From Halanaerobium saccharolyticum (lineage in GTDB: Bacteria; Bacillota; Halanaerobiia; Halanaerobiales; Halanaerobiaceae): a DNA stretch of 64,000 nt. The DNA lies in contig NZ_SNWX01000010.1 of NCBI RefSeq assembly GCF_004362045.1, positions 1 through 64,000 on the forward strand, given 5' to 3'. Both the position numbers and the translations under genes were made by a program. How positions within the stretch are numbered: position 1 is the stretch's first letter; every line of letters begins with the position of its first letter. The notes under the pieces are model-generated. The model was not told the DNA's origin. It worked only from the letters and a program-made list of their open reading frames with translations, and did not search any database. Below are positions 16,232-17,953 of the stretch, piece by piece.

Positions 16232-16768
16232 TTACTGCTGGGGATTTTCTTCGTATAAAGCTATATAGGGTAAATTTCTATATTTTTCCTGATAGTCCAG
16301 TCCATATCCAACCACAAAATTGTCTTCAATTTCAAAACCGGTATAGTGGACAGGTAAATCCAGCAGTTTATTATCTGAGATATGCAGCAGAGTGCAGATA
16401 CTGATGCTTTTTGGGTTGCGGGCCCCCAGGTTTTTCAGCAGATAGCTGTGGGTTAAGCCGGTTCTGATAATATTTTCAATAATCAAAACGTCTCTGCCGG
16501 CTATACTAAATTCGAGATCTCTGGTTACCCTAATAACTCCTGAGTTATCTTGATCTGCATAGTGATTTAATTCTAAAAAATCAAGTTTAAGTGGAAACTT
16601 AAGTTTGCGGCTTAGATCGGTCATAAAATAAAGAGAACTTTTTAAAATACTGACCAAAATGACTTCCTGGTCCTTAAAATCTTGATTTAGCTGAGCTGCC
16701 AGTTCATCAATCCTGGCAGCAATTTCTTTTTCGGAAATAATAACTTTTCCTAAATTATCTGTTTCCAT
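16232..16768 (-). CDS. Hypoxanthine phosphoribosyltransferase-like protein with altered PRPP motif
   Basis: Type I phosphoribosyltransferase of 178 residues. Matches to hypoxanthine PRTs are the LKSSLYFMTDLSRKL loop, a DFSI-like strand before DVLIIENIIRTGLT, and the C-terminal VGYGLDYQEKYRNLPYIALY. The PRPP motif is unusual. HPRTs normally read VEDIIDTG; here it is IENIIRTG, keeping Glu98 but replacing the second acidic residue by Asn99 and the catalytic-base Asp by Arg102. The protein may therefore bind nucleotides without normal catalysis, or use another substrate. It directly abuts the upstream kinase-like gene (no gap), so the two are translated from one mRNA. Symbol withheld for that reason. 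Confidence 0.75.
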   Translation of the reverse strand: METDNLGKVIISEKEIAARIDELAAQLNQDFKDQEVILVSILKSSLYFMTDLSRKLKFPLKLDFLELNHYADQDNSGVIRVTRDLEFSIAGRDVLIIENIIRTGLTHSYLLKNLGARNPKSISICTLLHISDNKLLDLPVHYTGFEIEDNFVVGYGLDYQEKYRNLPYIALYEENPQQ

Positions 16769-17737
16769 TTATTCTTCACCTCCGTTTAACTCGAACTTTT
16801 CGGCCAGCTGTTCAAAATCTTTTTTATAAACGATTTTTACATTAATGTGGGGATATAGTTCCTGCAGGAGACGAACCTTTTTATTTTTTTCGGTGGTATA
16901 TTTTCTTTTCATAGTTGTCAGTTCGACATAGGTATCGTGTTCAGTTAAATAAAAGTCCGGTCTAAAAGCCATGATCACATTACCATCTGGATCCCATTCC
17001 AGCGGAAATTCACTTGGTTCATATTCCCACTGAATATGATGCATATCCAGGATTTTAGCAAATTCTTTTTCACTTTCATGGCCAAAGCTGCGCTGATTGT
17101 TATTTTCATTTTCTTTTGCATCGGCTTTAACTTTGAGATCATTATTTAGGGGTCCGGGATTTTCTTTTTTTAGATCAATTAAATTCATTAAAACCGAAAT
17201 GCTTTCTTCCAGGCTCAGACCATCTCTATTTAAAGTTAAATGATAGAGGGTAGCCTTCTCCCAGTCCTGCTCGTGGATTCGCCAGAGATAGCGGCGGTGT
17301 TTGCGATCAGCCAATTCAAGTTCCCGGGCAGCCTCTTTTTTATGTAGACCAAATTCTTTTTCTAACTTTTTAATTCGATATTCTTCGGAAGCAGTAATTT
17401 TAAAATGTAGAGCATAGGGATGATTGTTAAAAATAATTTGGGCTCCCAGTCCTAAAATAAGCAGATTATTATTTTCAGCTTCTTTTTTCAACTTTTGTGC
17501 AATATATTCAGCAAAAGTAATCTGCTTTTCTTTTTCTGCACCGGGATTGGCGATTTTAGTGTAGAATTTAGTGCTCTGCTCCAGCATATGCAGCTGGTGC
17601 TTGTCAGCCACTTCGGGCAGCCAATTTTTTAGTACATAGCTGCGGTCAATTAACTTTAATCCAAGACGATGGGAGAGTTTTTCTGCAATTTTTTCTCCAC
17701 CACTTGCCGTCTGTCTTGAAATTGTAATGATCTGCAT
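16769..17737 (-). CDS. Cytidylate kinase-like protein fused to a PD-(D/E)XK-like domain
   Basis: Two-part protein of about 322 residues. The N-terminal ~190 residues resemble the cytidylate-kinase-like family: IITISRQTASGGEKIAEKLSHRLG (P-loop variant ASGGEK), a LILGLGAQ strand and a DRKHRRYLWRIHEQDW lid region. An acidic/Asn-rich linker leads to a C-terminal domain with FRPDFYL (Asp at about 261), YVELTT (Glu at about 272) and a following Lys-rich segment, a layout like PD-(D/E)XK nucleases, although the usual ExK is ELT. ATG 17737 follows an AAGGTGG ribosome site; GTG at 17746 is less likely. It is the first gene of a two-gene unit with the HPRT-like protein. The function is unknown. Confidence 0.7.
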   Translation of the reverse strand: MQIITISRQTASGGEKIAEKLSHRLGLKLIDRSYVLKNWLPEVADKHQLHMLEQSTKFYTKIANPGAEKEKQITFAEYIAQKLKKEAENNNLLILGLGAQIIFNNHPYALHFKITASEEYRIKKLEKEFGLHKKEAARELELADRKHRRYLWRIHEQDWEKATLYHLTLNRDGLSLEESISVLMNLIDLKKENPGPLNNDLKVKADAKENENNNQRSFGHESEKEFAKILDMHHIQWEYEPSEFPLEWDPDGNVIMAFRPDFYLTEHDTYVELTTMKRKYTTEKNKKVRLLQELYPHINVKIVYKKDFEQLAEKFELNGGEE

Positions 17738-17953
17738 AAATTCCACCTTCTTTCTTTAACTATATTATAGCATAAATAGCAGCCTGCGGCTATATCAATT
17801 AGCAAATTAAGGAAAAAAAGGGTTGAGCAAAACAGAATAATTACTTAATTCAAAATTCTTAAAAAAATAAAGGATTTTAACAATTTTTGCCCAATATAAT
17901 AATAAGAAGAATAAAATTTTATAATTTGTTTAATAAATAGGGGGTATTATTCG

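Follow-up and report, generated by a model that had tools for sequence, protein, structure and literature searches.

Two adjacent genes of the window (the whole stretch of 64,000 nt that was analysed), encoding a kinase-like/nuclease-like fusion protein and an HPRT-like protein, constitute a real and widespread pair and not a chance arrangement. As judged from their alignment, loss of the purine-contacting lysine is the family-wide signature of the paired HPRT-like proteins. In the best reading, to which we assign a probability of roughly 40%, a phosphoribosyltransferase turned sensor of PRPP or a nucleotide would control a domain that binds or cleaves nucleic acid.

Both genes are situated on the minus strand (Table 1), and the stop codon TAA (16771-16769) of the fusion gene is immediately followed by the start codon ATG (16768) of the HPRT-like gene, leaving a gap of 0 nt, as a sequence-only reading of this DNA had described. 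The same reading took both genes for one transcription unit, which is probably correct in view of the gene spacing and its conservation. GGAGGTG (16783-16777) has the appearance of a good ribosome-binding site for the HPRT-like gene, and a GTG at position 17746, upstream of the ATG at 17737, represents a possible alternative start of the fusion gene. Promoter-like matches at the locus did not exceed chance level, terminator-like matches were few and unconvincing, and an Rfam scan of the window returned nothing. Among public sequences, the fusion protein is closest to one from Halanaerobium saccharolyticum (90% identity), and full-length homologues in related genomes are 51-89% identical. The canonical HPRT of the window's genome (motif EDIIDTG) is encoded on another contig between TilS and FtsH.

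Table 1. Features of the gene pair in the window (domain numbering of the C-terminal domain where indicated)
Feature	Position	Strand	Details and evidence
Kinase-like/nuclease-like fusion gene	16769..17737	(-)	322 aa from ATG 17737; stop TAA 16771-16769
Cytidylate-kinase-like domain PF13189 (Cytidylate_kin2), P-loop variant without Lys (SRQTASGGEKIA)	17225..17731	(-)	Pfam, Foldseek
C-terminal domain, predicted PD-(D/E)XK fold, T7-endonuclease-I-like	16772..17107	(-)	Profile versus PDB, E 1e-5; model pLDDT 82.8
Invariant Glu in helix 1 of the C-terminal domain (E13)	17069..17071	(-)	37-domain alignment; aligned with endonuclease I
Invariant Pro-Asp, PD half-motif (P50-D51 of the domain)	16955..16960	(-)	37-domain alignment; endonuclease I profile
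Invariant E-x-T-T replacing E-x-K (E62-x-T64-T65 of the domain)	16913..16924	(-)	37/37; aligns with E-x-K of endonuclease I
Invariant Lys pair K74/K77 (domain numbering) in the helix that follows the E strand	16877..16888	(-)	37-domain alignment and model
Putative ribosome-binding site GGAGGTG of the HPRT-like gene	16777..16783	(-)	Within the end of the fusion gene; read from sequence
HPRT-like gene	16232..16768	(-)	178 aa; TIGR01203 178.7 bits; PDB 1r3u E 1.1e-45
Loop I Ser44, canonical Gly (L-K/R-G)	16637..16639	(-)	49 paired HPRTs aligned with 30 canonical ones
PRPP/5'-phosphate loop ENIIRTGLT	16451..16477	(-)	Asn99 and Arg102 substituted; T103-G104 kept
Ile130 at the purine-contacting Lys position (human Lys165)	16379..16381	(-)	Lys absent from 49/49 paired HPRTs
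Asp158 (human Asp193) to Arg164 (human Arg199), retained	16277..16297	(-)	49/49 paired, 30/30 canonical

With the 102-aa C-terminal domain alone as query, 38 out of 398 searched genomes of the window's phylum gave a match; 37 of these contain the true family and one (G244) a different protein. In every complete locus of these 37 genomes the nuclease-like domain is located C-terminal to the kinase-like region and is followed by an HPRT-like gene on the same strand; incomplete loci lie at contig ends, where L093 has no readable kinase region and the locus of G207 is cut. The full-length fusion was observed in 17 out of 61 related genomes (the window's own counted), each time with an HPRT-like gene after it. 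Considering both searches together, the pair spans 18 family-level groups of the phylum, and the search for conserved gene pairing suggested by the sequence-only reading thus recovered the pair wherever the locus is complete. The fusion and HPRT-like frames overlap or lie at most 10 nt apart in 39 of 52 loci, and at most 38 nt apart in 49 of them, single values being approximate due to the choice of start codons by script. Since the genome neighbourhoods of 34 paired loci revealed no further gene family recurring beside the pair at most loci, the pair looks self-contained. For two genomes (G091 and G286), more than one place with a nuclease-like domain and an HPRT-like gene was observed, which represent recent duplicates or split or mixed assemblies. 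Matches in L026 (G030), L025 (G056), G000 C4, and G244 concern a similar nuclease domain in other proteins without HPRT pairing and were not counted. The protein of G244 (434 aa, L095:4690-5991) has a related nuclease domain, the E-x-K of which is normal (YVELKG), and unusual neighbours, none of them an HPRT gene.

Occurrence of the pair is tightly linked to an extra HPRT. Two or more HPRTs were found in 34 out of 37 pair-bearing genomes versus 12 out of 361 genomes without the pair (Fisher p about 1e-35, a value that overstates independence, the sampled species being related). Exactly one HPRT in the absence and two or more in the presence of the pair were counted for 42 of 44 genomes checked; only G287 and G333, with a completeness of 75% and 61%, respectively, deviate. 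In the window, the pair sits between the Sir2 gene and glgC. Another genome of the window's genus, G007, which consists of a single contig, has these two genes directly adjoining with approximately 107 nt between them (L135:4980-7129), and this clean absence indicates that the pair is dispensable. Both genes are under strong purifying selection and hence functional, with dN/dS values within the genus of 0.03-0.06 in the case of the HPRT-like gene and 0.06-0.09 in that of the fusion gene (0.03-0.09 overall), some of the synonymous distances being near saturation.

The HPRT-like protein of the window passes the cut-off of TIGR01203, the NCBIfam HGPRTase equivalog, with 178.7 versus 150 bits, and this model was matched at E <= 1e-10 by all 37 aligned rows. 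Relative to the HPRTs of this family (1r3u, 2geb, and 6d9q), homology extends over the whole length, and the positions of human Asp193 and Arg199, the T-G of the phosphate loop, which is invariant, and the stacking aromatic residue, which is Phe or Tyr in all paired HPRTs, are shared. Unlike those HPRTs, the paired copies lack the purine-contacting Lys, the copy in the window additionally lacks the base Asp and D134 and has Ser for the loop I Gly, and in complete genomes the paired copy occurs in addition to a canonical HPRT. When 49 paired HPRTs were aligned with 30 canonical ones, the equivalent of human Lys165, which contacts O6 of the purine (PMC2228302), was Lys in every canonical protein (30 out of 30) but in no paired one (0 out of 49); the paired proteins instead carry Asn (23), Ile (9), Val (7), Cys (4), Arg (3), Leu (1), Ala (1), or Ser (1). 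On a quick tree, for which no root was inferred, this loss corresponds to one change.

The sequence-only reading had emphasised the change of EDIIDTG to ENIIRTG, with Arg102 in place of the base Asp. This holds true for the window, where both the base Asp and D134 are substituted, but it is not a signature of the family, given that the base Asp (human Asp137) is retained in 21 of the 49 paired HPRTs and replaced by Arg in 14, Gly in 11, Asn in 2, and Lys in 1. Regarding the conservation of Asn99/Arg102 that this reading had asked about, Arg at the base position is therefore confined to 14 out of 49 proteins, and Arg102 is a clade-specific feature of the Halanaerobiales. The Glu133 position is kept in 48 of the 49 paired HPRTs. 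Loop I reads KSS instead of K-G in the window's protein; its Gly is present in 30 out of 30 canonical HPRTs, and Ser occurs at this position in 12 out of 49 paired ones. The assumption of an HPRT-like protein with altered catalysis is thus well founded as far as the loss of residues for normal HPRT chemistry suggests. Judging from the residue pattern, the pocket of the paired HPRT keeps its phosphoribosyl end, whereas the part that reads the purine is lost and, in many lineages, the catalytic part too.

Second HPRTs of a different type were encountered in five genomes of one family (f65, L129-L133), where they adjoin other housekeeping genes. These proteins are unpaired, keep the Lys in five out of five cases, and contain the motif EDIIDSG, and were rejected as members of the system. 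Due to the retention of Lys and a normal motif in these five duplicates, mere duplication does not explain the Lys loss.

The C-terminal domain of the fusion protein probably adopts a PD-(D/E)XK fold and is nearest in sequence to T7 endonuclease I. A profile built from the domain matched the solved T7 endonuclease I structures (3cae, 2pfj, 1m0d, and 1fzr; best 3cae, E 1e-5), with the PD and E motifs aligned, and 26 out of 37 domain members matched PF05367 weakly, the window's domain scoring 18.2-20.2 bits and hence below the curated cut-off of 29.1 bits. VIA-align of the predicted domain gave Z values of 8.4 for Bax1, 8.0 for I-Bth0305I, 7.4 for VRR-NUC, 6.5 for Vsr, 6.1 for TnsA, and 5.8 for Hjc. 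PD-(D/E)XK nucleases predominate among the top structural matches; due to the moderate Z values, and with no Foldseek E-value below 0.001, the fold assignment rests on sequence profile and predicted structure together. The resemblance to a nuclease that the sequence-only reading had noted is borne out at the level of the fold by both. In contrast to T7 endonuclease I, the domain remains under the Pfam cut-off, carries E-L/I-T for E-x-K, is fused to a kinase-like domain, and is paired with an HPRT.

All 37 aligned domains, which are 49-94% identical to that of the window, keep the Glu and have the catalytic Lys of E-x-K replaced by Thr (E-L/I-T). Endonuclease I has D55 as a catalytic residue (PMC9547003). 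Because of the replaced Lys, the term nuclease denotes a fold here and not a demonstrated activity, and cleavage may be absent. For the PD-EXX-K nucleases of COG4636, a Lys on the adjacent helix was proposed as migrated catalytic Lys (PMC551604). The domain described here is comparable in motif in that the Lys of the E strand is absent and a Lys of the adjacent helix is a candidate replacement, and by analogy K74 or K77 might stand in for the lost residue. We treat this as a possibility, since endonuclease I, with its normal Lys, also has Lys residues in the same helix.

The N-terminal part of the fusion protein matched PF13189 with E-values of 2.7e-32 and 1.2e-32 in two scans, far above the curated cut-off (112.8 versus 28 bits), and all 36 aligned fusions matched this family at E <= 0.01. 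Foldseek placed 3hdt and 3fdi, solved members with the same fold, as best matches of the kinase-like domain, followed by CMP kinases. Of the proposed cytidylate-kinase-like domain with a P-loop variant, the domain stood up and its P-loop has no Lys, but this variant is nothing special, as 3fdi (GSGG) is likewise devoid of the P-loop Lys. The linker to the C-terminal domain (residues about 200-214) was modelled with low confidence. What sets the window's protein apart from PF13189 as such is its fusion to a PD-(D/E)XK domain and its pairing with an HPRT. A degenerate or weak kinase domain was noted for L044, L045, and L048; in case of L045 and L048 (family f102), the N-terminal region has diverged so far that it does not match the kinase domain of the window, whereas the nuclease-like domain and the HPRT are well kept. 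In view of these two loci, the kinase-like part may be the least essential one and may not be essential to the mechanism.

A natural fusion was detected outside the phylum. The one good match in a plasmid collection is located on the megaplasmid of Thermomicrobium roseum DSM 5159 (NC_011961.1, L060:3944-4945), where the domain is fused to an HPRT in a 333-aa protein annotated as hpt; the nuclease-like domain is N-terminal and is not mentioned in the annotation. A second match in this collection was only a weak match to DnaE and was discarded. The HPRT part of the T. roseum protein reads EDIVNTG (base Asp replaced by Asn), keeps the purine-contacting Lys, and has a shortened loop II; mutM, on the other strand, overlaps the end of the gene. 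Due to the lack of a kinase domain in this protein, the minimal shared unit consists of the nuclease-like and the HPRT-like domain, and the fusion points to a physical association of both.

Complex formation, the ligand, the regulation, and the nuclease activity are what we infer in the following proposal. The products of both genes would form one complex, in which the HPRT-like subunit, a duplicated and repurposed HPRT, would serve as ligand-binding sensor. This sensor would still bind PRPP or a nucleotide by its 5'-phosphate and ribose end and no longer read the 6-oxopurine; in several lineages it would also be devoid of the residue usually taken as catalytic base. The NMP-kinase-like domain of the partner would provide a second nucleotide-binding part, and its T7-endonuclease-I-like domain would bind and possibly cleave nucleic acid depending on whether the HPRT-like sites, and the kinase-like ones, are occupied by ligand, so that nucleotide or PRPP status would be coupled to DNA or RNA handling. 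The proposal is supported by the pairing with close or overlapping frames, the T. roseum fusion, the link to an extra HPRT, the residue pattern, the purifying selection, and the invariance of Glu, Asp, and Glu of the nuclease-like domain down to 49% identity. The T. roseum fusion, which retains the Lys, counts against it, as do the replaced Lys of E-x-K, the degenerate kinase of L045 and L048, and the 21 out of 49 paired HPRTs with base Asp, which may still be enzymes acting on another base.

A comparable principle is given by PurR of Bacillus, a Firmicute regulator whose repurposed phosphoribosyltransferase-like pocket binds PRPP and (p)ppGpp for regulation only (PMC8789054). PurR differs in its N-terminal winged helix and in acting on transcription, whereas the window's HPRT-like protein is devoid of a fused DNA-binding domain and has a kinase-nuclease fusion as partner; the Pfam scan of both window proteins yielded no match to the PurR winged-helix domain. 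In HPRT, (p)ppGpp contacts the same Lys that is lost in the paired copies (PMC6783271), and thus (p)ppGpp or a guanine-type effector is less likely than PRPP.

The strongest rival to a sensor-controlled complex, rather unlikely in our estimate, is the salvage of an unusual base, in which a phosphoribosyltransferase with changed specificity (not for 6-oxopurines) delivers its product to the kinase-like domain for phosphorylation, with the PD-(D/E)XK domain as scaffold or anchor. It fits the 21 out of 49 copies that keep the base Asp, an NMP released by the phosphoribosyltransferase is a natural substrate of an NMP kinase, and loss of the O6-contacting Lys, with D193, R199, and the phosphate loop kept, would shift the base choice. 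However, this explanation has to accommodate the loss of the base Asp in 28 and of the loop I Gly in 12 out of 49 copies, a kinase P-loop without Lys (in the solved relative, too), the degenerate or weak kinase domains of L044, L045, and L048, a T. roseum fusion without any kinase, and the invariant acidic residues of the PD-(D/E)XK domain.

A nuclease-like domain with sensor-like partners also recalls an anti-phage or stress-triggered nuclease that is released by depletion or change of nucleotides, and the patchy presence of the pair, which is cleanly missing from the syntenic site of one congeneric genome, is in agreement with this. We consider it improbable, since the inheritance is clade-wise without recurring neighbours, and the pair matched no protein of a described defence system in PADLOC (no match for the HPRT-like protein, and one weak, generic PD-DEXK match with E 0.001 for its partner). 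Searches of phage records and viral contigs gave no confirmed relative, and the plasmid collection contributed a single replicon. A factor of DNA repair or recombination, in which a domain that binds junctions or damage is linked to enzymes of the nucleotide pool, would explain that the nearest sequence relatives are Holliday-junction resolvases of the endonuclease I type, that Bax1, Vsr, VRR-NUC, and Hjc are structural neighbours, and that mutM overlaps the T. roseum gene on the opposite strand; but mutM was seen once, repair genes do not recur beside the 34 loci, and the catalytic Lys is replaced, so that we give this explanation little credit. Mitoribosomal proteins (9g6k, 9i05, and 6z1p) among the structural matches would suit an RNA-binding module for RNA or tRNA handling. 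This is the least probable explanation, because these matches are no better than those to DNA nucleases and invariant acidic residues of a metal site exceed the needs of RNA binding.

Each part of the pair belongs to a known family, and the combination and its distribution appear to be new. No paper on the pair or on the domain combination was found in the open-access literature, and an undescribed system, which the sequence-only reading had considered possible, agrees with this. In its most specific form, the sensor reading amounts to an undescribed, widespread regulatory complex, with a pseudo-phosphoribosyltransferase as sensor of PRPP or a non-purine nucleotide and an endonuclease-I-like domain under its control, which would directly couple nucleotide metabolism to the cutting or remodelling of nucleic acid; in this form it is tentative and rather doubtful. 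If true, a sensor-nuclease complex would be the first such link known to us from the level of PRPP or nucleotides to a protein acting on nucleic acid. NCBIfam scores the paired proteins as ordinary HPRT and would place them in purine salvage, and for the sampled genomes of the window's phylum the lost purine-contacting Lys provides a simple residue test to separate them from true HPRT. Across the tree, catalytic residues are lost step by step, which offers a natural series for studying the change from an enzyme to a regulator.
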